A DNA stretch of 64,000 nt from Bosea beijingensis (GTDB taxonomy: Bacteria > Pseudomonadota > Alphaproteobacteria > Rhizobiales > Beijerinckiaceae): positions 3,786,009-3,850,008 of the forward strand of contig NZ_CP132359.1 in NCBI RefSeq assembly GCF_030758975.1, written 5' to 3'. This document shows positions 2,473 to 41,605 of this stretch, one piece after another. The notes beneath the pieces were generated by a model. That model saw nothing but the letters and a program-made list of their open reading frames with translations. It did no database searches and was not told the DNA's origin. The translations under genes were made by a program, and so were the position numbers. The number at the start of each line of letters is the position of its first letter. Within the stretch, counting starts at the first letter, position 1.

Positions 2473-2508
2473 GACCGTTCCCTCCATTCAATGGAGTCGC
2501 GAACGGTC
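2473..2508. repeat. nested inverted repeat in a divergent promoter region
   Basis: Outer arms GACCGTTC (2473-2480) and GAACGGTC (2501-2508) enclose a second perfect pair, CTCCAT and ATGGAG (2482-2487, 2491-2496). The right outer arm overlaps the CGTT element of the EcfG-like promoter at 2502-2526, so a protein bound here could block that promoter. Alternatively it is a leader hairpin in the transcript of the 2214-2438 gene. Confidence 0.5.
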
Positions 2509-2526
2509 CGTAGGCGGTTTCGTTCC
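2502..2526 (-). promoter_or_regulatory. EcfG-type stress promoter (exact motif)
   Basis: On the minus strand GGAAC is followed after 16 bases by CGTT, the known consensus for alphaproteobacterial EcfG sigma factors. It faces the small membrane protein gene 2214-2438, with a leader of roughly 60 bases. Confidence 0.7.
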
Positions 2527-2591
2527 TGCGATCGCTGTCGTCATTCATCGCGATCCCCGGAACGAACCCCGGACTGTCCGGTTCAAGAGCC

Positions 2592-2780
2592 ATGTCCCAC
2601 CTGACAATCCGTAACGAGCAGGACCTCCAAGCGGCTCTGCGGCGCGCACAGGACCTCATCGGCTGTATGGGCAGCGACAAGGAGCACGAGCTTGCCGAGC
2701 TGGAGGAAGCTCTTGACCTTTATGCCTGCTTGCTATGGGCGGAGGCTCATATCGCAAATGACAACAAGCCGAGCGATTGA
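2592..2780 (+). CDS. small protein resembling the N-terminal part of HigA-type antitoxins
   Basis: The 62-residue product starts MSHLTIRNEQDLQAALRRAQ and continues with an acidic helix (ELAELEEALDLYACLLW). The spacing of I-N-x-D-x-x-A-L and E-L-x-x-L-E-x-x-L-x-x-Y recalls the helical leader of HigA-like HTH antitoxins, but no helix-turn-helix follows and no toxin gene is adjacent. It may be a stand-alone relative or a remnant. The ribosome site (AAGAG) is modest. Confidence 0.6.
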   Translation: MSHLTIRNEQDLQAALRRAQDLIGCMGSDKEHELAELEEALDLYACLLWAEAHIANDNKPSD

Positions 2781-2914
2781 TCCTGCTGGCCTCTAGCGCC
2801 CCTGCAGAGTGAAGCCTCGGAAATCGACATAAGCGACGGCTTGAATTCTGCCTGAGCCTTTTCACGAGCCGCCTCGGCACGGGCCGGATCGATCGGGTCG
2901 ATTGCAAAGGGCAT
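2747..2914 (-). CDS. possible 55-residue protein
   Basis: A GAGGG ribosome site lies six bases before an ATG, giving MPFAIDPIDPARAEAAREKAQ and a helical, Ala/Glu-rich start. The C-terminal half is less protein-like and its end overlaps the opposite 2592-2780 gene by 34 bases. This is the only candidate gene in the 2781-3212 gap. The good start signal is the main support. Confidence 0.3.
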   Translation of the reverse strand: MPFAIDPIDPARAEAAREKAQAEFKPSLMSISEASLCRGARGQQDQSLGLLSFAI

Positions 2915-3093
2915 GGCTTCCCTCGGCGCGGCGGCGCCTTCGATCCTCAGTCGTTCATGCCGCCAGCAGGCATCGCCCTTCTGAGCTCCCCTCCCCGCGA
3001 TCCGGCCCTTGGCGACGATGGGCTGATGCGGACTTTGGGCCGATACGACATCTCCGGGCGCTCGCCGCCGCCCGACGGAACAGACATCCAAAA

Positions 3094-3118
3094 GGAACTT
3101 CGGGCAATGCTCTCTGTT
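3094..3118 (+). promoter_or_regulatory. EcfG-like promoter (near match)
   Basis: GGAAC at 3094-3098 is followed after 16 bases by TGTT at 3115-3118, one base off the consensus. It lies about 95 bases before the ThDP-enzyme gene at 3213. Confidence 0.45.
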
Positions 3119-3212
3119 TTGCTTGGAACCGTGCCGCTGGGGGATCCATACGGCGCTACCTCCCAACGAGATCGATGTCTCGCGTGCGCTGTCCAATGCT
3201 CTGGAGCGCCTG

Positions 3213-5006
3213 ATGCCCGACACCGTCTCCGATTTCGTTTGGGCCCGACTCCACCAATGGGGTGTCAGACGCGTCTACGGTTATCCGGGCGATGGTATCG
3301 GTGGATTGATCTCCGCCCTGCAGAGGCGCGAAAAGGATATCGAGTTCGTCCAGGCTCGGCATGAGGAAATGGCGAGCCTGATGGCGTCGGGCGAGACGCG
3401 CTTCACGGGAAAGGTCGCGGTCTGCATCGCGACCTCGGGGCCCGGCGCGGGACACCTTCTCAACGGTCTTTATGATGCGCGGCTCGATCACCGGCCGGTT
3501 GTCGCGCTGGTCGGACAACAGGCTCGCTCGGCGATCGGCTCGCATTATCAGCAGGACCTCGATTTGCAATCGCTCTTCAAGGATGTTGCTGGCGCCTATG
3601 TCGAGACCGCATCCGTGCCGGCGCAGGTACCGCATCTGATCGATCGCGCGTTCCGGATCGCGCAGGCAGAGCGGCGCGTGACCTGCGTCATTCTGCCAAA
3701 CGACCTCCAGCTCGAAGCCATGGAAGAGCCGGCTCGGGAGCACGGCATGACGCATTCCGGTGTCGGCATCGACATCTCCCCGGTGGTTCCTGCCGAGCCG
3801 GCGCTGCAGCGTGCGGCCGATGTGCTCAATGCAGGCGAAAAGGTCGCAATCCTGGTCGGAGCCGGCGCGCTCGGCGCGACCGATGCCGTGCTCGCCACCG
3901 CCGAGAAGCTGAAAGCGGGAGTTGCAAAGGCGCTGCTGGGGAAAGCTGTGGTGCCGGACGATGTATCGTTCTGCACCGGCTCGATCGGGCTGCTCGGCAC
4001 AAAGGCCAGTTGGGACTTGATGCAGGACTGCGACACGCTGCTGATGGTCGGTTCGGGCTTTCCATACACCGAGTTTCTGCCGAAGCCGGGACAAGCCCGC
4101 GGTGTCCAGATCGACATCGACGCAGGCATGCTGGGCCTCCGGTATCCGATGGAGGTCAATCTCATCGGTGACGCGGCGGCAACGCTGCAAGCTCTCCTCC
4201 CGCTGCTGAAGCCAAAGGCGGGGGGCGAATGGCGAGCGACGATCGAGGCGAATGTCAGCGAAGCCTGGCAGGAAGCCAGGGACAGCGCGCTGGTCGAAGC
4301 CTCGCCGATCAATCCGCAGCGTGTTGCATCGGAGTTATCGGACCGCCTGCCTGACCACTGCATCGTCACCGCCGACAGTGGGACGACCACCGTTTGGTAC
4401 GCCCGGCATCTCCGATTCCGGCGTGGGATGATGGGGTCCGCTTCCGGCACTCTCGCTACGATGGGCTGTGCCGTTCCCTATGCCATCGCCGCCAAGTTCG
4501 CGCACCCTGATCGGCCTGCGATTGCGCTGGCGGGCGATGGCGCCATGCAGATGAACGGCATGTCCGAGCTGGTGACCATCGCCAAATATTGGAAGCGATG
4601 GTCCGATCCGCGCTTGATCGTCATGGTGCTGAACAACCGCGAATTGGCCTATGTGACCTGGGAAGAGCGCATTCAAGCCGGCGATCCGAAATGGCCGACA
4701 AGCCAGGATCTCCCGGACATCCCCTACGCCGATATCGCGAAGCTCATGGGACTGGGCGGTCGCCGCGTTGACGATCCCGAGCAGGTCGGTCCGGCCTGGG
4801 ACGAGGCACTCTCGGCCGATCGACCCTTCGTTCTGGACATCGTGACCGACCCGAACGTCCCGCCGCTGCCGCCCCATATCACCTTCGCTCAGGCACGAGG
4901 CTTCGCCGGCGCCTTGGCTAGCGGGGACCCCGAGGCCGGCAATGTGGTGACGAGCACCGCTCGCTCCCTCCTCGCAACGCTTCTGCCATCACGGAATGGC
5001 CGCTGA
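3213..5006 (+). CDS. thiamine diphosphate-dependent enzyme of the pyruvate oxidase / acetolactate synthase family
   Basis: At 597 residues this has the standard three-domain layout of the POX/AHAS family: an N-terminal Pyr domain with the conserved Glu in RHEEMAS (about residue 50), a central Rossmann-like domain, and a C-terminal PP domain with the ThDP-Mg motif GDG...NN (GDGAMQMNGMSEL near residue 440, then VLNN). The likely substrate is pyruvate or another 2-keto acid. I cannot tell oxidase (PoxB-like) from carboligase. I start at the ATG at 3213 because GGAG lies seven bases before it and the family's opening sequence begins there; the upstream in-frame extension looks non-coding. The flavodoxin-family gene follows 55 bases later. 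Confidence 0.85.
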   Translation: MPDTVSDFVWARLHQWGVRRVYGYPGDGIGGLISALQRREKDIEFVQARHEEMASLMASGETRFTGKVAVCIATSGPGAGHLLNGLYDARLDHRPVVALVGQQARSAIGSHYQQDLDLQSLFKDVAGAYVETASVPAQVPHLIDRAFRIAQAERRVTCVILPNDLQLEAMEEPAREHGMTHSGVGIDISPVVPAEPALQRAADVLNAGEKVAILVGAGALGATDAVLATAEKLKAGVAKALLGKAVVPDDVSFCTGSIGLLGTKASWDLMQDCDTLLMVGSGFPYTEFLPKPGQARGVQIDIDAGMLGLRYPMEVNLIGDAAATLQALLPLLKPKAGGEWRATIEANVSEAWQEARDSALVEASPINPQRVASELSDRLPDHCIVTADSGTTTVWYARHLRFRRGMMGSASGTLATMGCAVPYAIAAKFAHPDRPAIALAGDGAMQMNGMSELVTIAKYWKRWSDPRLIVMVLNNRELAYVTWEERIQAGDPKWPTSQDLPDIPYADIAKLMGLGGRRVDDPEQVGPAWDEALSADRPFVLDIVTDPNVPPLPPHITFAQARGFAGALASGDPEAGNVVTSTARSLLATLLPSRNGR

Positions 5007-5678: not shown

Positions 5679-6623
5679 TCACTCCAGGAGCCGGGCTCGC
5701 CGCTCGCGCCATGTCGCGGAGGTCTGCGGCTTCACGAAGACCGAGACGATGTCCGAGCGGCGTTTTCGGAGCTTTGTTTCGATGCGCTCGACGCAATCCT
5801 CGATATCGGCGGTGGAGCGATCGTCCTTGAATTCAAGGCTCAGAGCCACGACGATCTGGTCCGGGCCAAGATGAACCGTGATCATGCCGTTGACCCGCTC
5901 GACATCGGGATCGCCATCGATGGCCGCTCTGATCTCCTCCTGCACCTGCGGCAGCGCAGCTTCTCCAATGAGCAGGGCCTTGCTCTCCCGCGCCAGGAGT
6001 ATCGCCGTGGCGGCAAGGATGATGCCGATCAGGATCGAGGCGACCCCGTCGAGCTCGGGGCGCTCGAAATAGGCTGCTGCGGTGATGCCGATGAAGGCGA
6101 TGAGCAGGCCCAATAGGGCTGCCGTATCCTCGAACAGCACCGTGAAGACGCTGGGATCCTTGCTTTGCCGCACGGCCGCGAAATAGCTCAGGGTACCCTT
6201 GGCGGCCTTGAACTCTTTCAACGCGACCCGCCAGGAATAGCCCTCGAACAGAGCCGAGAGGCCGAGCACCACATAGTTCGCGGTTAGGCTCGTCGCAGGA
6301 TGTGGCGAGATGACATGGGCGATGCCTTCATAGAGCGAGACGCCTGCGCCGACAGCGAAGACCAGCAGCGCAACGATGAAGCTCCAGAAATAGAGTTCGC
6401 GGCCGTGCCCGAAGGGATGTGTGAGATCAGGCGGTCGGGCCGCCCGGTGCAGCCCGTAAAGCAGAAGTGCGCCATTGCCGGTGTCGACGAGGGAATGGAT
6501 TCCTTCCGACAGCATGGCCGAGCTACCCGTCCAGGCTGCAGCGATGAACTTCGTCGCTGCGATCAGGAGATTTCCAACCAGCGCCGCATAGATGACCGTT
6601 CGTGATCCCGCATGCGCCGCCAT
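5679..6623 (-). CDS. cation diffusion facilitator (CDF) transporter
   Basis: This 314-residue inner-membrane protein carries the CDF pattern: several hydrophobic helices, HSLVDTGN in the second helix and ELDGVAS in the fifth, which supply the H/D-x-x-x-D metal site, and a soluble C-terminal domain (about 215 onward). CDF proteins export Zn, Fe, Mn or related divalent cations against protons; the metal cannot be read here. The start at 6623 has a GGAGAG ribosome site. An exact EcfG motif sits just upstream (6645-6669), between this gene and the iron permease gene, which gives it its own stress promoter. Its stop lies 17 bases from the convergent flavodoxin gene. Confidence 0.88.
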   Translation of the reverse strand: MAAHAGSRTVIYAALVGNLLIAATKFIAAAWTGSSAMLSEGIHSLVDTGNGALLLYGLHRAARPPDLTHPFGHGRELYFWSFIVALLVFAVGAGVSLYEGIAHVISPHPATSLTANYVVLGLSALFEGYSWRVALKEFKAAKGTLSYFAAVRQSKDPSVFTVLFEDTAALLGLLIAFIGITAAAYFERPELDGVASILIGIILAATAILLARESKALLIGEAALPQVQEEIRAAIDGDPDVERVNGMITVHLGPDQIVVALSLEFKDDRSTADIEDCVERIETKLRKRRSDIVSVFVKPQTSATWRERRARLLE

Positions 6624-6644: not shown

Positions 6645-6669
6645 AACGAGCAATGCCCACGGGAGTTCC
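6645..6669 (-). promoter_or_regulatory. EcfG-type stress promoter (exact motif)
   Basis: GGAAC, 16 bases, CGTT on the minus strand, ending 22 bases before the CDF transporter start at 6623 and lying in the gap after the 6688-7110 gene. Confidence 0.7.
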
Positions 6670-6687: not shown

Positions 6688-7110
6688 TTAGTCGGTGGAC
6701 TTTCCGTTGGTGCTGTCGCGAGCGGATGAGGCCCTCTTACAGAAATCCTCGCGGATGAGGGCGAGGTCCTTCTCGTCGAGCTCCTCGAGGTCGAGCAATT
6801 CTTCGCGGGCACCTTCAAATCGCAGAATAAGCTCGTCGAGCTTGATCTGCATCGCAGCCGTGTCGCGGTTCTGGCTATTCTGGATGATGAAGACCATCAG
6901 GAAGGTGATGATCGTCGTGGAGGTGTTGATGACGAGCTGCCAGGTGTCGTTGAAGCCGAATATCGGTCCTGACGCAGCCCAGATCACGATCAGAGTCACG
7001 GCACCGAAGAAGGTGATCGGCTTGCCGGTCCAGGACGCGACCGACTGGGCCATACGCGTGAACAAGGAAGCCTTGTTGCCCTTGTGAATGATATGATCGT
7101 AGCTCGACAT
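6688..7110 (-). CDS. low-affinity iron permease-like membrane protein
   Basis: The 140-residue product has two transmembrane helices (about 30-50 and 58-78) and motifs of the low-affinity iron permease family: FTRMAQSVASWTGKP, a Trp-containing helix, then WQLVINTSTTIITFLMVFIIQN followed by NRDTAAMQIKLDEL. The C-terminal half is an acidic coiled-coil-like tail. Transport in bacterial members is not proven. It shares the strand with the CDF gene, which suggests a metal-homeostasis pair. A near-consensus EcfG motif lies at 7155-7179. Confidence 0.85.
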   Translation of the reverse strand: MSSYDHIIHKGNKASLFTRMAQSVASWTGKPITFFGAVTLIVIWAASGPIFGFNDTWQLVINTSTTIITFLMVFIIQNSQNRDTAAMQIKLDELILRFEGAREELLDLEELDEKDLALIREDFCKRASSARDSTNGKSTD

Positions 7111-7154: not shown

Positions 7155-7179
7155 AACCGCCCGGCCATTCGCGAGTTCC
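7155..7179 (-). promoter_or_regulatory. EcfG-like promoter (near match)
   Basis: GGAAC, 16 bases, GGTT on the minus strand, about 45 bases before the iron permease-like gene. Only the first base of the downstream element departs from consensus. Confidence 0.5.
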
Positions 7180-7267
7180 ACGAGAGATAAGATCGAGGAG
7201 CCTTGCAGCGATCGAACTGGTTCGGCGCGCTGGCTGCTGGCAGCGATCTCATGATCTGGATTAACGG

Positions 7268-8194
7268 ATGGGCGGCGAACTCAGTGACGTTCGGATCATG
7301 GAGGGGGACGATGGTCGGGGTGCAATCGTATCGTTTCCCTTTGATGCCGCATTCGTCGAGCGCTTCCGCATGGCATTTCCGCGCGCTCGCTGGAGCGACC
7401 GGCATCGGGCCTGGCGACTGCCGGGCACGACGGCCGCTCGACGCGTCACGCGTTGGCTTGACCGTGAACTCCCGGCAACGTTCACCAATGCCGATGAGCG
7501 CGGGCGGGATTCCTTCTCTTTCGAGCCCATCGTCAGCCCCTATCTTAGTACCGATAGCGAAATCATCGTTAGGACGCCCTATTCGCGCACCGTGGTCGCG
7601 GAATTGCGGGCCGTGCCCTGGGCTTGGTGGCATGGTGAGGACAAGGCCTGGCACATCCCCTTCCGATCCGTCGACGCGCTGCGTGAGCGACGGGCTGTTA
7701 TCGAAGCGGCAGCTCAGCGCAACGAGCCAGAGGCGCGGAAGATGCGAAGCGCCGCTGCGAAATCCGCTCCCGAATATGAAGGCGCCAAAGCCAGGACGAA
7801 CGAGCGGCGGCGGCAGCGTTATCCCGTTCCCGCCACCGCTTTGCCTCCGTTGGACAGGGTCCTGATGTCCCATGAGGGACCGCTCGTGGTTATGGACGTC
7901 ACCGGTGAGATCGTGCCAGCCGAGATCGCCCGACAGCACTATCCTTGGGGCGAGCTCCGGCGCGACGACCTGATCTGGGCACTATGGCGCCGCCCCACGC
8001 ATGATGAGCTGATCAAGGCTTGGCCAGCTCGTCACCAGCCCGCCGCCGATGATTTCGCACAAGGTTGGTGGCAGCCGACTCTTTCCGAACTGCGCGATGC
8101 CAGAAGGGCCGCCCGCTCTCTCGAACGCGCTCTGGAGACGCGCAAGCAAGGGCGTTCTACCCCGGGCAAGGGAGCTAGAGATCGGAGCCCATGA
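7268..8194 (+). CDS. protein with two HARP-like repeats, possible DNA-structure binding
   Basis: Two stretches follow the same pattern of a hydrophobic strand, a helix, then a D/E-K-x-W-x-x-P end: about residues 9-53 (VSFPFDAAFVERFR ... HRAWRLPG) and 97-136 (IIVRTPYSRTVVAELR ... DKAWHIPF). The pattern matches HARP domains, known from SMARCAL1 annealing helicases, where they bind fork and single/double-strand junction DNA. No helicase motifs are present. The C-terminal third (about 190-290) is rich in Trp and Arg and unassigned. The stop overlaps the start of the exonuclease III gene (ATGA), so the two are translationally coupled and a shared DNA-repair role is a reasonable inference. Confidence 0.65.
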   Translation: MGGELSDVRIMEGDDGRGAIVSFPFDAAFVERFRMAFPRARWSDRHRAWRLPGTTAARRVTRWLDRELPATFTNADERGRDSFSFEPIVSPYLSTDSEIIVRTPYSRTVVAELRAVPWAWWHGEDKAWHIPFRSVDALRERRAVIEAAAQRNEPEARKMRSAAAKSAPEYEGAKARTNERRRQRYPVPATALPPLDRVLMSHEGPLVVMDVTGEIVPAEIARQHYPWGELRRDDLIWALWRRPTHDELIKAWPARHQPAADDFAQGWWQPTLSELRDARRAARSLERALETRKQGRSTPGKGARDRSP

Positions 8195-8976
8195 GAATAG
8201 CGACCTTCAACATCAATGGCATCAATGGTCGCCTTCCCGTCCTCCTCCGGTGGTTGAGCGAGACCCAGCCGGACATCGCCTGCCTGCAGGAGCTGAAGGC
8301 TACGCAGGACAGGTTTCCGGAATCAGCGATCCGAGACGCCGGCTACGGCTGCATCTGGGCGGGCCAGAAGAGTTGGAACGGCGTCGCCATCCTGGCACGC
8401 GGCAGCGATCCCATCGAGACCCGCCGCAGCCTGCCCGGCCATGCGGGCGACCAACAGAGCCGTTATATCGAAGCCGCCGTGCAAGGCGTGCTGATCGGTT
8501 GTCTCTACCTTCCGAACGGAAATCCGGCGCCAGGCCCGAAACTCGCGTACAAGCTGGACTGGCTCGCACGCCTCGCAGACCACGCCGCAGAGCTACTGGC
8601 GCATCGCGTTCCGGTCGCGCTCATTGGTGACTTCAATGTCATTCCGACCGAGCGAGACGTCTACAAGCCCGAGCGCTGGCTGGGCGATGCTCTATTTCGT
8701 CCCGAGGTCCGGCGCGCCTTCGAGGCGCTTCTCGCGCAAGGCTGGACGGACGCATTGCGCAAGCTTCACCCCGAAGACCGCATCTACACATTCTGGGATT
8801 ATTTCAGAAACGCATGGGGACGCGATGCCGGCCTACGCCTTGACCATCTGCTTCTGAGCCCGGATCTGGTCGCGCGTCTGGAAGCGGCGGGTGTCGATCG
8901 CCACGTGCGTGGCTGGGACAAGGCCAGCGACCATGCCCCCGCCTGGATTCGACTCGCGGCCATAGCGCTGCAGTAG
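8191..8976 (+). CDS. xth: exodeoxyribonuclease III / AP endonuclease
   Basis: At 261 residues this is a full-length member of the Mg-dependent ExoIII/APE1 family. Visible motifs are the N-terminal FNINGI, the metal-binding Glu in CLQELK (about residue 34), the GDFN catalytic loop near residue 150 and the C-terminal SDHAPAW with the catalytic His. It nicks abasic sites and removes blocked 3' ends in base excision repair. The ATG overlaps the stop of the HARP-like gene by four bases. It ends 11 bases before the convergent DUF763 gene. Confidence 0.93.
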   Translation: MRIATFNINGINGRLPVLLRWLSETQPDIACLQELKATQDRFPESAIRDAGYGCIWAGQKSWNGVAILARGSDPIETRRSLPGHAGDQQSRYIEAAVQGVLIGCLYLPNGNPAPGPKLAYKLDWLARLADHAAELLAHRVPVALIGDFNVIPTERDVYKPERWLGDALFRPEVRRAFEALLAQGWTDALRKLHPEDRIYTFWDYFRNAWGRDAGLRLDHLLLSPDLVARLEAAGVDRHVRGWDKASDHAPAWIRLAAIALQ

Positions 8977-8987
8977 CGAGGGGTATC

Positions 8988-10268
8988 CTACCGACGTCGG
9001 AATTTCGCCTCGTTGTCTTTTTCGCAGCCTCCATCCGGCCTCTCCCATCCGAAGACGCTTCGGCCGCCGTACTCCGGCGAGCGTCGGCGCTCCTCGGCGA
9101 CATACTCGACGAGCGTCGGACCTGTCGCACTCTGTTCCAGCCGGCGACTCTCGCCGTCCAGCCGCGCGATCGCGGCAAGGCGATCCTCCTGACCGAGCTT
9201 CGCCCGGTCGACGGCCGAACGAAGGACACCGATCGTCTGATCATAGACCTTGGTCGGTACGGCGAAGGGCTGGCGATCCTTGCCGCCATGCGCGAGCGAA
9301 AAGCGCGCGGGATCACTGAAACGGCATGGCGCACCATGCAGCACTTCCGCGACCATCGCGAGAGAGCGTACGGTACGAGCACCAATGCCGGGCACGAGCA
9401 GAAGCTCGGAAAAATCGCTCGGGCCCCGGTCGGCCGCGGCGGCAAGCGCACCATGAAGGCGGCGCGCCATGACGTCTTTGGGCTTCACATCATGATGCGA
9501 AGGCATCACGAGATGCGGCAGGGTTAGTTGCGGAGCCACTTGATCGGCGCAAGCGCGCTTCGGTTGGAGCGCAGCTAGCTCTCTGACGATCGCATCAGGC
9601 CCTTCGTCGCGAAGCATCGCGACCTGCGCCGTACGGGCACGATCCGCGCGTGCATCCGTCAGGTTGACGATATTACCGGTGCTACGGCCCTCGATCGCCG
9701 CATGAGGCGCCTCGACGAAGCTGCCGAGCCCCTCGGAATGCCAGTGATAACGCCGCGCCATCCCGCCATCGCCATTCATGCCCTGCTGCACGACCGTCCA
9801 GTGCCCGTCATCCGTCACGAAGAAGCCGTGCAGGTAGAGGTCGAAGCCGTCCTGCACCGCGGCGCTGTCGACCTTCGCGACGAGCCGGCTCGCCTGAGCC
9901 AGCGCCGCTCCGTCGAACCCGACCTTCCCACCGATCTGCTCCAGCTCCGCCGGGGTGCGGCGGGACTGGTTGCCGCGTCCGCCGCAGACATGGAGCCCGA
10001 GCTCGCCGGCGAGCGGCGTCAGGCCGCGCTTCAAAGCCCCGATCACGCTGGTCGTGATGCCCGAGGAGTGCCAGTCCATTCCCATGATCGCGCCGAAGGA
10101 CTGGAACCAGAAGGGATGCGCGAGCCGCCGGAGTAACTCGTCGCGACCGTAGTGCTGGATGATCGCCTCGCAGATCACGCTGCCCAGCCTGGCCATGCGC
10201 TCGCCCAGCCAGGGCGGAACGCGGCCGTAATGCAGGGGAAGATCAGCGCTGCCTGATCGGCGTGTCAT
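8988..10268 (-). CDS. DUF763 family protein with helix-hairpin-helix
   Basis: The 426-residue product opens with RRSGSADLPLHYGRVPPWL, the conserved start of DUF763. Further family blocks are QHYGRDELLRRLAHPFWFQSFG and MGMDWHSSG near residues 40-70. A helix-hairpin-helix-like segment (LLLVPGIGARTVRSLAMVAEVL) lies near residue 300, which fits non-specific DNA binding. The biochemical function of the family is not known to me; its place next to exonuclease III and a HARP-like gene points to DNA repair. I prefer the ATG at 10268, with CCGGAAC before it, over one five codons upstream. Confidence 0.85.
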   Translation of the reverse strand: MTRRSGSADLPLHYGRVPPWLGERMARLGSVICEAIIQHYGRDELLRRLAHPFWFQSFGAIMGMDWHSSGITTSVIGALKRGLTPLAGELGLHVCGGRGNQSRRTPAELEQIGGKVGFDGAALAQASRLVAKVDSAAVQDGFDLYLHGFFVTDDGHWTVVQQGMNGDGGMARRYHWHSEGLGSFVEAPHAAIEGRSTGNIVNLTDARADRARTAQVAMLRDEGPDAIVRELAALQPKRACADQVAPQLTLPHLVMPSHHDVKPKDVMARRLHGALAAAADRGPSDFSELLLVPGIGARTVRSLAMVAEVLHGAPCRFSDPARFSLAHGGKDRQPFAVPTKVYDQTIGVLRSAVDRAKLGQEDRLAAIARLDGESRRLEQSATGPTLVEYVAEERRRSPEYGGRSVFGWERPDGGCEKDNEAKFRRR

Positions 10269-10475
10269 GAAGTTCCGGAACAAATAAAGAACGATCAGTC
10301 GGTATAGGCTCTCGCAGGCTCTCGCGCCAGCCTGAATTCAGCCCGACGGCTTCGATGGGGCAAGCAACCGGTGCCCTTGAACAATCTGCAGGTGGTGGAA
10401 CAGCGAGGCCGCTCGGGCGTCCTGACTCTGGAGCCCAGAGGGCGATGACGATCCATTTGAGTGGATACCACCAGC

Positions 10476-10661
10476 ATGGCCAATGGCAATCGCGAAGCTC
10501 TCAACGACCAGATCGCTCTCCTGCGCCGGCAGGTTTCGGATTTGACCCAACTCGCGGCAGCCGCCTCCGGAGCCGCGCAGGAAGAAAACCTGCAGGAGCA
10601 GATCAACGCCAAGCAGGACCATCTCAACGAGCTCCTGAAGCTGCGTGGCGATGTGGGCTAG
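10476..10661 (+). CDS. small coiled-coil protein
   Basis: The product of 61 residues begins MANGNREALNDQIALLRRQV and is almost entirely heptad-like (Leu, Gln, Glu, Ala), so it is likely a short coiled coil or helical bundle. A sequence GGAAC, 16 bases, CGTC at 10397-10421 resembles an EcfG promoter with one mismatch. Similar tiny helical proteins in this group are often stress-induced, but no function is known. Confidence 0.6.
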   Translation: MANGNREALNDQIALLRRQVSDLTQLAAAASGAAQEENLQEQINAKQDHLNELLKLRGDVG

Positions 10662-10795
10662 CGATACGATCGCGATCGAAGACGGTTCCACTCCCTGCTG
10701 GCCATGCTGGCGGGCAGGGGCCGATGAGCGACTGCTGATGCGAAACCCGCCGGGTTTAGGTAGGATGGCTCATCCGCAGCGGAGACATCGTCCGC

Positions 10796-13156: not shown

Positions 13157-13211
13157 CGCACCAAAACAACGATCGCCGTTGCAGGCTTCGCCCTCGGCGC
13201 AGAGAAACAAA

Positions 13212-13772: not shown

Positions 13773-13774
13773 GT

Positions 13775-14128: not shown

Positions 14129-14156
14129 ATTGCAGGTCTGCCTGACCGGGATACGT

Positions 14157-14363
14157 CTAGCGCTTTTCGCTATGTTCAAGTGTCAAGGCATTCCGCGCGG
14201 CTCTCGCAGCTTTGCTCATCTCCCGCAATTGCTGCATCAGAACGGGACCTTCGATCTGGCTAGAGTTGTATCCCTCTTCCTGAAGTCTTCGCCGAAGTTC
14301 CCGGATTTTCTGGAAACCGCCTGTTCTCGCCAGCTCGAAAGCACGCTCGAGTACCGTTTTCAT
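14157..14363 (-). CDS. small helical protein, unknown function
   Basis: The product of about 68 residues (MKTVLERAFELARTGGFQ) has a pattern of short conserved Hyphomicrobiales proteins: an aromatic-containing first helix, an RxLRRRLQEEGY segment, and a C-terminal helix beginning GPVLMQQLREM. Three ATGs occur in a row; the third is placed correctly, with AGGA about seven bases before it. It may be DNA- or RNA-associated from its charge, but nothing shows this directly. Confidence 0.6.
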   Translation of the reverse strand: MKTVLERAFELARTGGFQKIRELRRRLQEEGYNSSQIEGPVLMQQLREMSKAARAARNALTLEHSEKR

Positions 14364-14592: not shown

Positions 14593-14612
14593 GATGTGCG
14601 CGTGCTCCTCGC

Positions 14613-14852: not shown

Positions 14853-14885
14853 GGCGGCACCTCACGCAACGCATCGATTACGCCG

Positions 14886-32290: not shown

Positions 32291-34009
32291 CTACGACAGG
32301 AAGGCGCGGAACGACCTGGGCCCGAGGCGCAGGCCGTCCGCTCCATTTTCCACCTCGCCCAGAGCGAAGATCGCCGCGCCGTCCGCCAGGCCACCGGCCA
32401 CAGCATCGTCGCCGAAATTCGCCATGAGCGTCAAAATCCCTCCACCAAGGGCCCAGGACGCCCGAACGGCGGCCGGGCCTAGCACTGCTGCGCCCAGGCT
32501 GCGGCAGTCGTCGAGATGAGGGACGATCCGGTCGCGCCTGAGCATGATGAGCTGCCGGTAGAACGCGTTCCATTCGACGCTATCATCGGCGGCGACGGGC
32601 TTGCTGGCAGCAAAGGTTGCCGCGGAATTGGGATCGAAAAGCGGTCGCTCCCCTTCTGGATCGAGATGAGCGAATTCGCGCCTGCGACCTTCCCTGACAG
32701 CTTGGGCGAGCTCCTCGTGATGATCGGTGAAATACAGGAAGGGAGCGCGGCTACCCTCCTCTTCGCCCATAAAGATCAGCGGAATCTGTGGGGTCAGCAG
32801 CAGCAGCGCGACGGCGACCCTGACCGCGGCCGGATCGGCCAGGGCCAGCAGGCGTTCGCCGAAGAGGCGGTTGCCGATCTGGTCATGGTTCTGCAGGCAG
32901 TTGACGAAGCGATCGGGCGTCAAATGTGCGCTTGACCGCCCGCGCGGCTCGCCGCTGAAAGAAGCGATCTCACCCTGGAACGCGAAGCCTTCCGCCAGCA
33001 CGCGCGCAAGATGGCGGGCCGGTTCGGCGGCGAAGCTGCCGTAATAGGTGCTGGCCTCGCCCGTCAGCAGGACATGAACGGCGTGATGGAAATCGTCGTT
33101 CCACTGCGCGTCGAAATGCGAAAGCAGCCGGGAGTCGTTGGCGTCGTTCTCGACAACGAGCTGGATATCGCGCTCCGCCGGAATGGCATTACGGACCTCC
33201 CGTCCGAACTCCATGAGGAAATCGAGCGAGGGGATGGCATGGACGGCGTCGAGCCGCAGCCCATCGAACCGGTACTCGTCCAGCCATTGGATCGCGCAGG
33301 CGATGAAATAAGCGCGGACCTCCGGGCGATCGAAGTCGATCGCCGCACCCCATGGCGTATGGCTGCCGGGGTGGAAGAATTGCGGCGCATAAGCGTGCAG
33401 ATAGCAGCCATCCGGGCCGAAATGATTGAAAACAACGTCGAGATGGATCGCAAGGCCGAGTTCATGCGCCTGATCGACCAGTCGCTTCAATTCGCTGGGA
33501 GATCCGTATGCGGCGGCGGGCGCGAAAGGTAGAACGCCGTCATAACCCCATGACCGCTCGCCCGGGAAATCGGCGATGGGCATGAGCTCGACGGCCGTGA
33601 CGCCCAATTGGGCCAGACGCGGCAATTCCGCGGCTATCCCTGCGAAGCCGCCGGCAAGGCCGGGATGAATTTCGTATAGTACAGTCTCACGCCAAGGCCT
33701 GCCGCACCAGCCGCCGCAGCGCCAGGAATAAGCCGAGTCAGTAAGGACGCTCCAGCCATGAACCCCGCCCTTCTGCTGGCGCGAGGCGGGGTCCGGGAAG
33801 GTCAGCCCGTCCGGAGAGCGATAGCGGTAACGGGTTCCGAACGGCAGATCGGCGCGGTGCTCGAACCAGCCGCCGCCGGTCGCGGCCATCGGAAGGCTAA
33901 CCGGTTCTCCGTCGATGTCGATCGAAACCGTCGCGAGCGCGGGCGCCCATAACCTGAACGTCGCAGCCGAGCCAGTCCTCCAGGCACCGAAGCGAACCGT
34001 CTCCATCAT
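32291..34009 (-). CDS. treZ: malto-oligosyltrehalose trehalohydrolase
   Basis: The roughly 572-residue GH13 enzyme starts METVRFGAWRTGSAATFRLWAP, typical of the TreZ N-terminal CBM48-like domain, and has GLRLDAVHAI with the nucleophile D254 and VENDAND as the acid/base region. It releases trehalose from the product of TreY. Two adjacent ATGs at 34009 and 34006 both fit; the ribosome site is poor. The gene is convergent with treY, 13 bases apart, so the pair is not a simple operon, unlike many treZ-treY arrangements. Confidence 0.9.
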   Translation of the reverse strand: MMETVRFGAWRTGSAATFRLWAPALATVSIDIDGEPVSLPMAATGGGWFEHRADLPFGTRYRYRSPDGLTFPDPASRQQKGGVHGWSVLTDSAYSWRCGGWCGRPWRETVLYEIHPGLAGGFAGIAAELPRLAQLGVTAVELMPIADFPGERSWGYDGVLPFAPAAAYGSPSELKRLVDQAHELGLAIHLDVVFNHFGPDGCYLHAYAPQFFHPGSHTPWGAAIDFDRPEVRAYFIACAIQWLDEYRFDGLRLDAVHAIPSLDFLMEFGREVRNAIPAERDIQLVVENDANDSRLLSHFDAQWNDDFHHAVHVLLTGEASTYYGSFAAEPARHLARVLAEGFAFQGEIASFSGEPRGRSSAHLTPDRFVNCLQNHDQIGNRLFGERLLALADPAAVRVAVALLLLTPQIPLIFMGEEEGSRAPFLYFTDHHEELAQAVREGRRREFAHLDPEGERPLFDPNSAATFAASKPVAADDSVEWNAFYRQLIMLRRDRIVPHLDDCRSLGAAVLGPAAVRASWALGGGILTLMANFGDDAVAGGLADGAAIFALGEVENGADGLRLGPRSFRAFLS

Positions 34010-34088: not shown

Positions 34089-34114
34089 AACCGGCAACGC
34101 ACCTCCGAGGTTCC
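34089..34114 (-). promoter_or_regulatory. EcfG-like promoter (near match) for treZ
   Basis: GGAAC, 17 bases, GGTT on the minus strand, about 80 bases before treZ. Confidence 0.45.
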
Positions 34115-34164: not shown

Positions 34165-34189
34165 GGAACGCCTGCGGCGCCGTCCCGTT
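34165..34189 (+). promoter_or_regulatory. EcfG-type stress promoter (exact motif)
   Basis: GGAAC, 16 bases, CGTT, 36 bases before the DUF892 gene start. Confidence 0.75.
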
Positions 34190-34225
34190 TTGTGGGAATA
34201 CGCAACCCCAAAACGGGAGATGACG

Positions 34226-34729
34226 ATGGGTTGGTTTTCAAAGGACATCGCAACGATGGACGACCTCTTCGTCCACACGCTTCAGGACATCTATTATGCG
34301 GAGAACCAGATCAGGAAGTCGCTTCCCGACATGATCGCGAAGGCGACGAACTCCGAGCTGAAAAGCGGATTCGAAATGCATCTTCGTCAGACCGACGGGC
34401 ATATCGACCGGCTGAAACAGGTCTTTCGCCTGCACGGCGCGGAGGAAAAGGGGGTCACCTGCCCCGCGATCGACGGCATCCTCGAAGAAGCCAGCGATAT
34501 CGCCGGAGACGTGGCCGACAAGCAGGTGCTGGATGCCGCATTGATCGCCGCCGCGCAGGCCGTCGAGCATTACGAGATCACGCGCTACGGCACCCTCGTC
34601 GCTTGGGCCAAGCAACTCGGCCGCGAGGATTGCGCCTCCCTTCTCCAGCAGACGCTCGACGAGGAGGACGCCACCGACAAGAAGCTGTCGAAGCTCGCCC
34701 TCAGCGGCGTCAACCGAAAAGCGGCCTGA
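34226..34729 (+). CDS. DUF892 / YciE-family ferritin-like protein
   Basis: The 167-residue product follows the DUF892 four-helix pattern: MDDLFVHTLQDIYYAENQI at the start, HLRQTDGHIDRLKQVF in helix two, and AVEHYEITRYGTL then LLQQTLDEEDATDKKL. The E-x-x-H and E-H-Y-E residues fit a di-iron site of the ferritin-like type, though metal binding in this family is mostly inferred. Expression with stress is common for YciE-like proteins and fits the exact EcfG promoter at 34165. GGGAG six bases before the ATG at 34226 decides the start over an ATG two codons earlier. Confidence 0.88.
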   Translation: MGWFSKDIATMDDLFVHTLQDIYYAENQIRKSLPDMIAKATNSELKSGFEMHLRQTDGHIDRLKQVFRLHGAEEKGVTCPAIDGILEEASDIAGDVADKQVLDAALIAAAQAVEHYEITRYGTLVAWAKQLGREDCASLLQQTLDEEDATDKKLSKLALSGVNRKAA

Positions 34730-34747: not shown

Positions 34748-34775
34748 CGCCACTGTACGGCTCCGTACAGTGGCG
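34748..34775. promoter_or_regulatory. perfect 13-bp palindrome before a Crp/Fnr gene
   Basis: CGCCACTGTACGG, a CT centre, then CCGTACAGTGGCG. It ends eight bases before the regulator's ATG and overlaps its presumed ribosome site (GGCGGAAC). It could be an operator for autoregulation or an RNA hairpin that hides the ribosome site. It also follows the DUF892 stop by 18 bases, but has no T-run. Confidence 0.7.
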
Positions 34776-34783
34776 GAACGCTC

Positions 34784-35554
34784 ATGCCATTCGATCGTTT
34801 TACGCTGATGGCGGAGCATCATGACTTTTTTCTAAGAAAGCTCAGTCTCGGCATCGAGCTGTCGCCGGAAGATCGTGCGGCGCTGGTCGGGCTTTGCACG
34901 CCAGCTCGGCGGGTCGAGCCGCGGACTGATCTCGCAGACGAGGGCAGCCCACGCGGCGGTCTCATCCTGGTTCTGAGCGGCTGGGCCTGCCGCTATCGCG
35001 TTCTGGCAAATGGCAATCGCCAAATCACGGGCCTCCTGCTTCCAGGCGATTTTTCTCAGCCTTTCGGCATCACGCCGCAGAGATGGTCCTGCTCGCTGAT
35101 GGCTCTGACGCCAGCTACGGTCTGCGAGCTTTCGCCGCGAGCGCTACGCTCTCTTGCCCTGGCTCACCCAACCATCGAGGATGCCCTTTGGCTTGACCTT
35201 TATCTTGAGCGTGACCTCGCCAGCGAACTTATCGTCAGTCTCGGCCGGCGCAGTGCGAGCGAACGCCTCGCCTGCATGCTGTGCGAGATTTACTCCAGAT
35301 TGAAAGCCGTCGGGTTGGTCGATGAACGGAGTTTCGACCTGCCGGTCACACAAGCCGATCTGGCGGACCTGCTGGGATTATCGGCCGTCCACATCAATAG
35401 GTCGCTCATGGATTTGCGTCGGCGCCGGCTCATCACTTGGCATGGTCGTCGCTTCGAAATCCTACGCCTGCGCGAACTGCTCGATCTTGCCCAGGTCGAA
35501 CCGGTTTATTCTGCTTCCTTGTTGTCCGGGACCCCGGAGGTAGCTCATGGATGA
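34784..35554 (+). CDS. Crp/Fnr-family transcriptional regulator (first copy)
   Basis: The 256-residue protein has a cyclic-nucleotide-binding-like beta barrel (about 25-140; GGLILVLSGWACRYRVLANGNRQITGLLLPGDF) and a C-terminal winged helix with VTQADLADLLGLSAVHINRSLMDLRRR (about 187-213) as recognition region. No Cys cluster of the FNR type is seen, so it is not an obvious iron-sulfur sensor. Its stop overlaps the start of the HWE kinase gene by eight bases, which ties regulator and kinase together in one transcript. The palindrome at 34748-34775 directly precedes it. Confidence 0.9.
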   Translation: MPFDRFTLMAEHHDFFLRKLSLGIELSPEDRAALVGLCTPARRVEPRTDLADEGSPRGGLILVLSGWACRYRVLANGNRQITGLLLPGDFSQPFGITPQRWSCSLMALTPATVCELSPRALRSLALAHPTIEDALWLDLYLERDLASELIVSLGRRSASERLACMLCEIYSRLKAVGLVDERSFDLPVTQADLADLLGLSAVHINRSLMDLRRRRLITWHGRRFEILRLRELLDLAQVEPVYSASLLSGTPEVAHG

Positions 35555-36245
35555 GCGGGTCCTGCAAGAAGAAATTCAGCGGTTGCGCGTCGACAACAGA
35601 CGCCTCCGTCGCCTGCTGGAAGCTGCCAACGCGCCGGCCGAGCTACGCCACCGTATGCGCTCGACCATCGCACTGTTGCTGCAGGTCATCAGGCAGTCGG
35701 CCCATCGCGCAACGAGCATCGACAGCTACGTTGCGCATCTCGCTGAGCGCGTCGAAGCCATCTCCCGAGCTCAGGCTGCTGCCGACGATCAGGGCTCGAT
35801 CGACCTGCATTCGCTCCTGTCGGAGGAGCTGACCCGGTTTCGTGTACTGGAAGGAGAGCGGCTGGAGCTCTCAGGGCCCACCGTGCGCTTCAATGCCCGG
35901 CCAGGACAGAGCATCGCTCTTGCGTTTCATGAACTCGCGCTCAATGCCATCGAACACGGCCCCTTGGGCTTGGATGACGGAAGACTCCGTATCCGATGGC
36001 ATTTCGAAGACAAATCACAGCACCACGAGCTTGTGCTGGAATGGCGGGAAAGCGGTGCTGAATCATGTCCTTCGTCGGAGGCAGGTTTCGGAACACAGAC
36101 TTTGACAGCAATGCTGTTTCACGAACTCGGGGCGCAGACCTCGCTATTCCATCATGAGCGCGGCACATCCTGCACGATCCGAATTCCATGGAACGAGAGA
36201 CTGGGCTCGGTTCTCGACGAACAGCTCGTGCCGCTGTTCCGTTGA
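35547..36245 (+). CDS. HWE-type histidine kinase without a sensor domain
   Basis: At 232 residues this has only a short N-terminal coiled coil (EEIQRLRVDNRRLRRLLEAAN), the phospho-acceptor helix (ELRHRMRSTIALLLQVI, His about 35), and an ATPase domain with FHELALNAIEHGPLG and the W-x-E of LEWRESG. With no PAS, GAF or membrane part, its input must come from a partner, perhaps the Crp/Fnr protein whose gene overlaps by eight bases. The second Asn-box differs slightly from the standard HELATNA. It ends at a pair of hairpins. Confidence 0.82.
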   Translation: MDERVLQEEIQRLRVDNRRLRRLLEAANAPAELRHRMRSTIALLLQVIRQSAHRATSIDSYVAHLAERVEAISRAQAAADDQGSIDLHSLLSEELTRFRVLEGERLELSGPTVRFNARPGQSIALAFHELALNAIEHGPLGLDDGRLRIRWHFEDKSQHHELVLEWRESGAESCPSSEAGFGTQTLTAMLFHELGAQTSLFHHERGTSCTIRIPWNERLGSVLDEQLVPLFR

Positions 36246-36305: not shown

Positions 36306-36548
36306 TTAACGGTAATTGTGCCAATGGCCTTCAAGCATCAGCTTGGCGCTGTAGATAGCCTTGCCGCTGGTGTCGCGCACGGAAACTGTGAAAGTCCTGT
36401 GATCTCCATTCGGCAGCTCGTCCCTCGCCATGTCGGGCAGGGCGTCGAGCGCGGCCCTCCGTGCTGCCTCCGCATCGGGGAACTCCTGCCCAACGTTGTC
36501 GATGAGCGGTCGCTGCCCGTCGGATGTGTCGATGAAGTAGCGTGGCAT
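36306..36548 (-). CDS. DUF6894 family small protein (first copy)
   Basis: The 80-residue product starts MPRYFIDTSDGQRPLIDN and continues with EFPDAEAARRAALDALPDMARDELPNGD, the DUF6894 pattern (P-x-Y-F-x-x-x-D-G, acidic loop, A-A-x-x-A helix, then G-D-H). The end is a two-strand sheet. Function unknown; members are abundant in Hyphomicrobiales and often stress-linked. An exact EcfG promoter with 17-base spacing lies at 36581-36606. A relative lies at 43996. Confidence 0.82.
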   Translation of the reverse strand: MPRYFIDTSDGQRPLIDNVGQEFPDAEAARRAALDALPDMARDELPNGDHRTFTVSVRDTSGKAIYSAKLMLEGHWHNYR

Positions 36549-36580: not shown

Positions 36581-36606
36581 AACGGCCCCGCTTGCCAGCC
36601 GGTTCC
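36581..36606 (-). promoter_or_regulatory. EcfG-type stress promoter (exact motif)
   Basis: GGAAC, 17 bases, CGTT on the minus strand, ending 33 bases before the DUF6894 gene. Confidence 0.72.
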
Positions 36607-37582: not shown

Positions 37583-37801
37583 TGCGTGTCCTCGCTTTGT
37601 GAAGTGGCTCCGGACCATCAAAGCCACCATCTTCAACCCCGCGGGCGACCGATGGTTTCCGATCCACAGCCCGGCCGCCAGGAAACGTTCGGCACAGCAC
37701 GGTCGGAAGCTGAGCGCGGGCGCCGCCATCCGGTTCCACGTGGGAACTGGCCGCAGGGCTCGCGAGTTTCGGCGCCAAATCAACCGACTGATGGAATGAG
37801 A

Positions 37802-38413
37802 ATGAGCCTGCCCACATCCGCCGGGCCCGACGATGCCGCGCCCGATCTCTTCCGCCCGCTGCAAGCTCGGGATTTCCTGAACCCGCCGATCCTGCTGGCC
37901 GGTGTCGTCGATAACCTGATGTATGCCTTCTTCCGGGATCGTCTGATGACGGCGCCGCTGGAAGGCGTCGTCGTCATCGAGCTCAGCACCTTGGGAGGCG
38001 ACCCAGAGGTGGCTCGGATGATGGGAGAGGATATTCGGTTCCACAGCGAGCAGGAGCCGAACCGGCGCTTCGTTTTCCTCGGCAAGGCTGCGATCTACTC
38101 GGCCGGCGCCACATTCATGAGCTTCTTCGCCCGCCCGAACCGTTACCTGACGCGCGGCACACGGCTCATGATCCACGAGCGCAAGTTGCAGGCCAATGTC
38201 ATCCTCGACGGTCCTCTGACCATGTGCATCGCCAACCTCAAAGCGAAGCTCAACGAGATCGAGCATTCGATCCAGATCCAGAACGAAGGCTTCCAGAACC
38301 TCATCGCCGGTTCGTCGGTCAGCATGGAGCAGGTGCTCAAGCTGGCGCCCGAGAACTGGTATATCGAGGCCAACGAGGCCATGAATCTCGGCCTCATCGA
38401 AGGCGTCATCTGA
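37802..38413 (+). CDS. ClpP-like serine protease
   Basis: This 203-residue protein follows the ClpP/crotonase-like fold: VVVIELSTLGGDPEVARMM, then a nucleophile strand GKAAIYSAGATFMSFF (Ser in Y-S-A-G, where ClpP has A-S-M-G), and RGTRLMIHERKLQ giving the His. The helical handle region (NLKAKLNEIEHSIQIQNEGFQNL) is present. It lies outside a clpP-clpX operon and has a diverged active-site loop, so it is likely an accessory protease or inactive paralog. GGAATGAGA precedes the ATG. A loose EcfG-like motif (GGAAC, 17 bases, AGTT) lies at 37743-37768. Confidence 0.75.
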   Translation: MSLPTSAGPDDAAPDLFRPLQARDFLNPPILLAGVVDNLMYAFFRDRLMTAPLEGVVVIELSTLGGDPEVARMMGEDIRFHSEQEPNRRFVFLGKAAIYSAGATFMSFFARPNRYLTRGTRLMIHERKLQANVILDGPLTMCIANLKAKLNEIEHSIQIQNEGFQNLIAGSSVSMEQVLKLAPENWYIEANEAMNLGLIEGVI

Positions 38414-40956: not shown

Positions 40957-40983
40957 ACGGGACAAGAGCGCGAGGAGCGAACA

Positions 40984-41196
40984 ATGTCTGCAAGCCAGAA
41001 GACAGAGACCGATTTCGACCGAGCCCGCGAGCGGGTCGAGGGCCACCTGTCTGATCGGGATGGAAAGGGCGACAAGCTGACACCGCCGGATGGTCCGCAC
41101 GCCACGGAAGGGGCGACGGATAAGGCAAAGACCCCGGGAAGCGGCGCGCTGTCATCGTCTCGTCCGCGTGATGACATCGAGACAGGCACAGGTTGA
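40984..41196 (+). CDS. small hydrophilic protein of 70 residues
   Basis: GAGGAG precedes the ATG, 27 bases after the SDR stop, so it is probably the third gene of that operon. The product (MSASQKTETDFDRARERVEG, then GDKLTPPDGPHATEGATDKA) is charged and disordered, with no Cys or hydrophobic core. Likely a stress-type disordered protein; function unknown. Confidence 0.6.
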   Translation: MSASQKTETDFDRARERVEGHLSDRDGKGDKLTPPDGPHATEGATDKAKTPGSGALSSSRPRDDIETGTG

Positions 41197-41240
41197 GACA
41201 GGCCTTGTCTCCGCTCCTGCCTGTCGATGGCGACGATCTT

Positions 41241-41453
41241 TTACTGTCGTAGTGCCGGCAGCTTTTGAAGGTCGGTACGACTCTTCGGCCCATCGCGCCG
41301 ATCGACTTGACCAGACTGACGCTCGCGAAGCGTATCGGCGTGATAGAAGTTGAAGCCCACGAAGATCGCTACGATCATCGCCGCAATGACGGCGACGATC
41401 ATCAAGGCGGCTCTACCAGCCTTCCGAGGCGGCGGCGTGTGATTCTCGGTCAT
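41241..41453 (-). CDS. small single-pass membrane protein
   Basis: This 70-residue protein has a transmembrane helix (about 16-34, LMIVAVIAAMIVAIFVGF) after a short basic N-terminus and a charged C-terminal tail. It probably sits in the inner membrane with the tail outside. An exact EcfG promoter lies at 41491-41515, 38 bases upstream. The ribosome site is weak. No family recognised. Confidence 0.6.
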   Translation of the reverse strand: MTENHTPPPRKAGRAALMIVAVIAAMIVAIFVGFNFYHADTLRERQSGQVDRRDGPKSRTDLQKLPALRQ

Positions 41454-41490
41454 GCAGGCCCGCCTTCGAGAGATGCGGTCATCTTGATCG

Positions 41491-41515
41491 AACGCCGGCC
41501 GGCCGAGCACGTTCC
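41491..41515 (-). promoter_or_regulatory. EcfG-type stress promoter (exact motif)
   Basis: GGAAC, 16 bases, CGTT on the minus strand, ending 38 bases before the 41241-41453 gene. Confidence 0.7.
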
Positions 41516-41580
41516 CTCGCTCCAGAATCCGTTGCCTTCAAAGAAATCCGTTGCCCCTCCCCACGGCCGGCCTATTCGCG

Positions 41581-41605
41581 GGAACCGGGTCACTTGGATG
41601 GTGTT
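41581..41605 (+). promoter_or_regulatory. EcfG-like promoter (near match) for the phospholipase D gene
   Basis: GGAAC, 16 bases, TGTT, ending 86 bases before the phospholipase D-family gene start. Confidence 0.45.

Follow-up and report, generated by a model that had tools for sequence, protein, structure and literature searches.

The 64-kb window analyzed here (64,000 nucleotides of the Bosea beijingensis chromosome, NZ_CP132359.1, positions 3,786,009 to 3,850,008) probably represents a Bosea general-stress gene cluster in which many transcription units have their own promoter for the sigma factor EcfG, and in which one further EcfG promoter most likely makes a small RNA (element 14503-14596, + strand); from the sequence evidence, the probability of this reading is put at about 0.8. 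We think that the new part is the small RNA family, the run of promoters belonging to the known EcfG kind.

EcfG-type sites in the window

The exact EcfG pattern, GGAAC-N16/17-CGTT, was scanned on both strands of the window. All nine exact sites listed by hand in a first-pass annotation were recovered in place, along with three more at 14477-14502 (+), 33077-33102 (-) and 34775-34799 (+). The resulting 12 sites compare with a mean of 0.59 and a maximum of 5 in 100 dinucleotide shuffles, and with 1.5 expected from the genome total. The matches were concentrated at these two spacings, with 8 at N16 and 4 at N17 vs 0-3 at each of 16 other spacings (8-15 and 18-25). Distances from the -10 box to the assigned start codon for the nine listed sites were 63, 21, 99, 95, 60, 19, 30, 32 and 37 bases, so the range of 20-100 bases claimed for them holds for eight and is narrowly missed by the one at 19. 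The N16/17 scan also gave 57 one-mismatch forms, where at least six had been claimed; most are noise, and 12 reach at least 13 bits. The exact scan agreed that there is no exact site after 42 kb, a weaker GGAAC-N16-CATT (12.5 bits) being present upstream of a DUF6894 gene at 43996.

A weight matrix was trained on 57 hand-picked sites of 69 counted in relatives, none from this genome or from its near-twin G017. The training sites belong to glgX, glgA, DUF2934, glgB, malQ, the small protein at 29330, treY and the RNA; the training set therefore holds orthologues of some window sites, and the matrix favours those genes. At a threshold of at least 13 bits, the first 42 kb held 24 strong sites and the remaining part (42-64 kb) none, against 6 in twelve background stretches of 20 kb each (240 kb). 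Half of the 24 are exact, and the other 12 deviate at the first base of CGTT. These non-exact strong sites add further units: a thiamine-pyrophosphate enzyme, an iron permease, glgP, glgA, DUF2934, treZ (start uncertain), Clp-like and phospholipase-D-like genes and two small open reading frames (ORFs). The GC content ranges from 61 to 67% in 0-44 kb and from 66 to 69% in 48-64 kb. No tRNA or tmRNA was detected in the window by ARAGORN, and no integrase by a Pfam scan of 50 ORFs (to 49.5 kb), no other test for lateral transfer having been made.

Conservation was assessed in the 350 nt upstream of the best match of 41 window genes in 16 stretches of relatives. Sites and related features are given below in window coordinates with the strand in brackets; "relatives" refers to this comparison.

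1834-1858 (-): EcfG-like site, TGTT form, 16.9 bits; no assigned start, the nearest downstream gene being the HWE kinase 335-1351, ~480 nt on
2502-2526 (-): exact EcfG site before small protein 2214-2438; exact in the sole relative found, G010
2559-2583 (+): EcfG site, GGTT form, 8 nt upstream of the start codon (ATG) of small protein 2592-2780; gene without a relative in the 16 stretches
3094-3118 (+): EcfG site, TGTT form, before thiamine-pyrophosphate enzyme 3213-5006; gene without a relative in the 16 stretches
6645-6669 (-): exact EcfG site before cation-efflux gene 5679-6623; no relative in the 16 stretches
7155-7179 (-): EcfG site, GGTT form, before low-affinity iron permease 6688-7110; one-mismatch in the sole relative found, G024
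10796-13156 (+): HWE histidine kinase with receiver domain, without a strong EcfG site of its own
14477-14502 (+): exact EcfG site beyond the nine first listed, before the small RNA element
14503-14596 (+): putative small RNA element, type A; leader, hairpins 14525-14545 and 14548-14560, terminator 14562-14593
14888-14913 (-): EcfG-like site, GGTT form, 14.8 bits; no assigned start
15902-15927 (-): EcfG site, GGTT form, before small ORF 15660-15872
16187-16211 (+): EcfG site, TGTT form, before glgP; overlaps divergent site 16189-16213
16189-16213 (-): exact EcfG site before small ORF 15964-16089; overlaps divergent site 16187-16211
22914-22938 (-): exact EcfG site before glgX-type gene 20746-22818; exact in 12 of 12 relatives
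22984-23009 (+): EcfG site, TGTT form, before glgA 23039-24571; one-mismatch in 10 of 10 relatives
24928-24952 (-): EcfG site, AGTT form, before DUF2934 gene 24625-24891; 2 exact and 9 one-mismatch in 11 relatives
24990-25015 (+): exact EcfG site before glgB-malQ (25076-29325); exact in 8 of 10 relatives
29553-29577 (-): exact EcfG site before small protein 29330-29533; 3 exact and 1 one-mismatch in 5 relatives
29641-29666 (+): weak site, GAAAC form, 9.8 bits, before treY 29713-32277; 3 exact and 13 one-mismatch in 16 relatives
33077-33102 (-): exact match, probably due to chance because it lies inside treZ
34089-34114 (-): EcfG site, GGTT form, possible treZ promoter, start codon uncertain; 0 of 6 relatives at the assumed start
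34165-34189 (+): exact EcfG site before DUF892 (YciE-like) gene 34220-34729; 2 exact and 1 one-mismatch in 4 relatives
34775-34799 (+): exact EcfG site beyond the nine first listed, before Crp-type regulator 34808-35554 and HWE kinase 35547-36245; 1 exact (near-twin G017) and 1 one-mismatch among 3 relatives
36581-36606 (-): exact EcfG site before DUF6894 gene 36306-36548; 1 exact (G017) and 1 one-mismatch in 4 relatives
37743-37768 (+): EcfG site, AGTT form, before Clp-protease-like gene 37802-38413; one-mismatch in 2 of 2 relatives
41491-41515 (-): exact EcfG site before small protein 41241-41453; exact in the sole relative found, G017
41581-41605 (+): EcfG site, TGTT form, before phospholipase-D-like gene 41692-42978; one-mismatch in 1 of 2 relatives

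Conservation of the sites in relatives

A site before the gene that is kept in relatives, as would be expected of an EcfG regulon, was found for glgX, glgA, glgB, DUF2934 and treY (the near-twin G017 being counted in each of these five sets), the other genes having too few relatives. The exact sites before glgX recur with diverged spacers, and in the stretches L101 and L129, in which glgB is apart from malQ, an EcfG site is placed before malQ. In the aligned relatives, with the exception of the mostly collinear near-twin, segments of the run are rearranged or missing; since sites are kept while gene order differs, a promoter tends to stay with its own gene and not with the surrounding genes. 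With boxes kept and spacers diverged despite rearranged gene order, the predicted window promoters look real.

This was extended by a same-locus control, in which 13 glycogen/trehalose loci of the Bosea group (picked by record title or same-genus handle, L105 being titled Hyphomicrobiales only) carried 1.50 exact sites per 10 kb vs 0.18 for the reversed pattern. In 66 such loci from outside Bosea, of equal GC content, the density was 0.22 per 10 kb, about that of the reversed pattern (0.19). In a TreY search the nearest relatives were Bosea or Hyphomicrobiales, with a 99% identical TreY in a Bosea metagenome-assembled genome.

Several observations weigh against the promoter assignments. Three of the 24 strong sites (1834, 14888 and 33077) have no assignable start, and the KGG (38617) and alcohol dehydrogenase (38980) genes have no strong site of their own, read-through from 37743 being possible. 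The site of treY in the window itself is the GAAAC form of only 9.8 bits; the treZ site recurs in none of six relatives at the assumed start and that of DUF6894 (36306) in two of four. For several genes, the 16 stretches hold no relative (cation efflux, thiamine-pyrophosphate enzyme, small protein 2592) or a match in the near-twin only. A lone one-mismatch match is in any case weak evidence, the reversed pattern with up to one mismatch occurring in 8 of 94 upstream stretches.

Distribution in the genome and contiguity of the run

The 5.56-Mb chromosome contains 128 exact matches (80 at N16 and 48 at N17), only a slight excess over the 106 of the backward-read control pattern, which also counts against the main interpretation; most lone matches are therefore probably due to chance, and it is the clustering that stands out. 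The richest 40 kb of the genome is the window run with its 12 sites, the next best having 8 and uniform placement giving at most 8 in 2000 draws. Runs with eight exact sites each were found at 4.986-5.021 Mb and at the phyR locus (2.642-2.652 Mb), and the twelve background stretches contained one exact site in total. The run continues upstream of the window, with sites at genome positions 3771955, 3776833 and 3786004.

The first-pass annotation had taken the run for a contiguous stress island in which metal transport, glycogen/trehalose metabolism and small proteins respond together. EcfG-type sites do occur far above background before genes of these three kinds, several of them kept in relatives, and a joint stress response of the window genes is a plausible consequence. 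Contiguity, in contrast, does not hold: there is a 7.3-kb gap (7180-14476, with exonuclease, DUF763, HWE kinase and DNA glycosylase genes) without a site of at least 13 bits in the weight-matrix scan, segments are reordered in other Bosea, and further paralogous clusters exist elsewhere in the genome, so that the run is not one contiguous unit. Much of this site-free part is taken up, at 8191-13772, by genes for an exonuclease-III-like protein, DUF763 and a DNA glycosylase, perhaps a DNA-repair insert.

The window run is one of several clusters of this genome that share gene families. Paralogues of its proteins in the other EcfG clusters include an iron permease (83%), KGG (76%), an alcohol dehydrogenase (64%), a short-chain dehydrogenase (67%) and four copies of DUF892 (51-56%). 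DUF6894, Crp-type regulators, HWE kinases and the small proteins at 1889, 2214, 2592, 15964 and 41241 are further shared families, and a second glgB/treY/treZ/malQ group is present within the stretches selected for EcfG clusters. The same comparison with the twelve background stretches gave two weak generic matches. The cluster at G000:C1:4984000-5049999 (L196-L198) combines KGG, alcohol dehydrogenase, iron permease, DUF892 and the second glgB/treY/treZ/malQ group, and its treY-like match sits in a 1641-aa open frame.

Regulators and proposed mechanism

The sigma factor, PhyR and NepR were correctly described by the first-pass annotation as lying outside the window; they are located together ~1.1 Mb away, at 2.648 Mb, where PhyR (PhyR_sigma2, sigma-like and receiver domains), an ECF (extracytoplasmic function) sigma factor, NepR and a HisKA_2 kinase are found. 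The ECF sigma factor beside phyR and nepR is the candidate EcfG, named by its Pfam sigma domains and its place. This locus falls within the densest 10-kb cluster of sites in the genome: in the stretch L063 (G000:C1:2638000-2657000), the 10 kb around phyR-nepR-ecfG contain eight exact EcfG sites, and genes for a Crp-type regulator, DUF992 and an extensin-like protein lie close by. Within the window, HWE kinases are encoded at 335-1351, 10796-13156 and 35547-36245, the last following the Crp-type gene with its exact EcfG site, and a receiver-HisKA_2 protein at 46389-47462.

The chain from HWE/HisKA_2 kinase through PhyR and NepR to EcfG is described as established for Alphaproteobacteria in the parts of PMC6599016 drawn on here. 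By this route, stress would be sensed by HWE/HisKA_2 kinases and PhyR phosphorylated, and phosphorylated PhyR would sequester NepR and free EcfG. Freed EcfG would then use the window promoters to transcribe the genes that build and degrade glycogen (glgP, glgX, glgA, glgB, malQ and treY/treZ), the ion transporters, the DUF892, DUF6894 and DUF2934 small proteins, the Crp-type regulator with its HWE kinase, and the RNA. The latter would begin just past 14502, fold into two hairpins followed by a terminator that has a U-tail, and most probably base-pair with mRNAs via its conserved leader (CGGAATT..GTAG).

A structured element behind the site at 14477

The exact site at 14477 has no assignable gene, and 60 bases on there is a 14-bp perfect hairpin followed by a T-run. 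A terminator within 25-220 nt was found for this site only among 128 strong sites (those of at least 13 bits in 18 sampled stretches of the genome, distinct from the 128 exact matches), and for 9 of 1080 random positions. The 86-nt stretch folds with -52 kcal/mol (z -8.6), and transcription would be expected to start ~5-10 nt past 14502.

Diverged copies of the element were detected by DNA search. A first alignment (A1) comprised 7 elements of 16 matches, a near-duplicate (G017:C8) and eight short or reverse-strand pieces being excluded, and a later one (A4) 18 loci of 30 matches. The covariance model starts at the base after CGTT of the window copy, thereby excluding the promoter, and was then refined. 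With the refined model, 14 of the 67 Bosea genomes yielded 22 matches in all (E <=0.001), every one of which scored again on its own locus. Up to three copies occur per genome, those of B. beijingensis being at 3800511, 4184422 and 1703417. Nine of 21 base pairs changed on both sides, and the covariation score of 0.297 (vs 0.162 shuffled and <=0.139 slid) was above all 500 shuffles and all slides; the structure is conserved with compensatory changes that exceed most controls, in an alignment that was itself fitted to the structure. The consensus fold leaves the leader free.

An EcfG site ends at the element start in 16 of the 22 copies (5 exact, 11 one-mismatch; 15 at offset 0 and one at +1), vs 0.24% for random positions of the same loci. 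The element carries an EcfG site at its 5' end in these 16 copies and, in the window copy, a terminator at its 3' end, and we read it as a new family of EcfG-made small RNAs in Bosea. Two types can be distinguished. Type A has 14 copies including that of the window, with a leader that is mostly CGGAATT or GAAATTC. Type B has 8 copies, with a leader that is mostly GCGGATTTT, all with a one-mismatch site and all in one syntenic place. The neighbouring 100-aa gene of type B is close (at least 71% identity) in 9 genomes, 8 of which carry the RNA and the site; in G021 there is no more than a weak trace (E 0.1). In seven genomes whose version of the neighbour is distant (42-53%), neither was seen. 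We give about even odds to the more specific proposal of a Bosea-own, EcfG-transcribed small RNA family with two branches, type B keeping one syntenic position within a sub-clade, and type A being located among accessory stress genes with which it spreads. A stronger version, with a separate copy brought by each island, was dropped.

The evidence on the other side begins with the six copies that have no site, which are an orthologous group of four (including 4184422 of this genome) and two weaker matches. Since the copies are related, 16 of 22 does not stand for 16 independent events. The single-sequence fold of the window copy pairs the leader with the second hairpin, the covariation alignment, being fitted to the structure, is biased in its favour, and a further measure, that of pair types, was equalled in 19 of 500 shuffles. 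No convincing copy was found in 24 stretches of the relatives' glycogen/trehalose loci, or in 29 of 31 stretches of this genome (the window and L066 being the two others), and no target stood out when the duplex energy of the RNA was compared over 60 start regions of the window (best z -2.2). Three type A copies have a + strand small-protein ORF ~150-160 nt past the element start, as a leader would.

The type A copy at G000:C1:4184422-4184515 (L222) lies inside another EcfG cluster; as it and its three orthologues (G017, G020 and G021) are all without a site, it may have another promoter. Beyond these copies, none was found in the other 53 of 67 Bosea genomes (61-63 candidates scored, with stricter filters) or in the other 296 genomes of an order-wide search (only 14 candidates scored per genome), both being weak evidence of absence. 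Rfam gave no match above the gathering score, the best being DsrA with 23.7 bits vs 60. A pattern search with the leader sequence over the 67 genomes was set aside, as it returned, beside known copies, mostly other matches, including a conserved stretch read as coding, possibly a gyrase-like gene.

Alternative explanations

Instead of a trans-acting small RNA, the element at 14503-14596 could be the leader of a downstream gene and contain a transcription attenuator, which we regard as unlikely. It does end in a strong hairpin, the type A flanks join into one similarity group, the copies G000b, G020a and G069a precede the + strand ORFs just mentioned, which by eye belong to one small-protein family, and a + strand ORF (14676-14936) lies downstream in the window. 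The conserved gene downstream of type B is, however, on the opposite strand in all eight copies, as is the window ORF that resembles (by eye) one near the G020 copy, and the next ORFs of other type A copies differ or lie on the opposite strand.

GGAAC-like -35 boxes are used by several ECF groups, and another ECF sigma factor with a near-identical -35 box might read the sites in place of EcfG, particularly as the EcfG candidate owes its name to Pfam sigma domains and to the neighbouring phyR and nepR. This is very unlikely in view of the densest 10-kb site cluster surrounding phyR-nepR-ecfG itself, the fit of the motif to the published EcfG motif of Sphingomonas (GGAAC-N17-20-GTT) and a gene content like that of the Sphingomonas EcfG regulon, both as given in the parts of PMC6599016 used. 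Highly improbable, too, is an EcfG-independent structured repeat that neighbours an EcfG site here by chance: six copies without a site would suit it, whereas 16 of 22 sites ending at the same place (vs 0.24% at random), with the promoter outside the model, would not. That the motifs are compositional accidents of a GC-rich region is scarcely credible, as the genome-wide counts barely above the reversed control (128 vs 106) and the intragenic exact site at 33077 are outweighed by the shuffles, the spacing control, the background stretches and the conservation with diverged spacers.

Relation to known systems

In the excerpted text of PMC6599016, Sphingomonas melonis Fr1 has an EcfG-dependent cluster of malto-oligosyltrehalose synthase, 4-alpha-glucanotransferase, trehalohydrolase and GlgX, and a cAMP-binding regulator in its EcfG regulon; the glgX region is a putative indirect target with a low motif score. 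On this description the Bosea run resembles that regulon in its promoter motif, its treY/malQ/treZ/glgX genes and its Crp-type (cAMP-binding) regulator. It differs in that glgX, glgA and glgB of Bosea have their own conserved sites, and in that its genes form one cluster among several that have families in common.

GsrN, according to the portions of PMC5869019 available, is a sigma-T-dependent small RNA of Caulobacter crescentus, with GsrN-like RNAs predicted in Rhizobiaceae, Brucella, Rhodopseudomonas and Bradyrhizobium; the homologues have a conserved C-rich 5' loop and are typically near ecfG-nepR-phyR, C. crescentus excepted. The Bosea element is similar as a short RNA (predicted) from an EcfG-type promoter in the general stress response. 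It is set apart, by description and not by alignment, by its leader CGGAWTT, by its distance of 1.15 Mb from ecfG-nepR-phyR and by up to three copies per genome. Specifically, inspection of the window copy revealed no exposed C-rich 5' loop (leader GAGCAGGCGGAATTCACAGTAG, first loop GCATC), the three copies (3800511, 4184422 and 1703417) are remote from the regulator genes at 2.648 Mb, and the phyR-nepR-ecfG stretch L063 contained no match to the element. Sinorhizobium meliloti has RpoE2-dependent, i.e. EcfG-driven, small RNAs (PMC3616915, seen in part), to which the Bosea RNA is likened by description, not by sequence.

A literature search, judged by titles and the starts of abstracts, found no publication on the EcfG regulon or small RNAs of Bosea; the present analysis offers a stress-regulon map, built from DNA alone, for a genus without one in that literature, together with a compact structured RNA with a predicted start. 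If the proposed family is true, it would be a post-transcriptional arm of the Bosea general stress response, its leader differing from the one reported for GsrN. Should the RNA prove real and stress-induced, different Alphaproteobacteria may have evolved EcfG-made RNAs of differing form, raising the question of why the regulon so often recruits one.

Promoter arrangements

At 16187-16213 the two divergent sites overlap such that each -35 box contains the -10 box of the other site, and a like palindrome is present upstream of glgP in G017, G014 and G018. A class of bidirectional promoters was considered: GGAAC-N17/18-GTTCC was counted 6 times in the 341 kb sampled from this genome and 7 times in 496 kb from relatives, where each of the other spacings tried gave 0-1 and 0-3, respectively. 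As ~13 divergent overlaps would be expected, by our own estimate, from 128 sites and base composition, no special class is claimed. A class of leaderless transcripts was likewise not retained, an ATG 7-9 nt past the -10 box being found at 7 of 128 sites, which is not clearly more than at other distances. A protein of 62-73 aa (MSHLTIRNEQDLQAALRRAQ / MTHFTIRNEDELNAALDRAI) is encoded at 2592-2780 of the window and around 5021-5164 of L200, and in both copies the start codon is 8 nt past an EcfG -10 box, which may mean a leaderless transcript.

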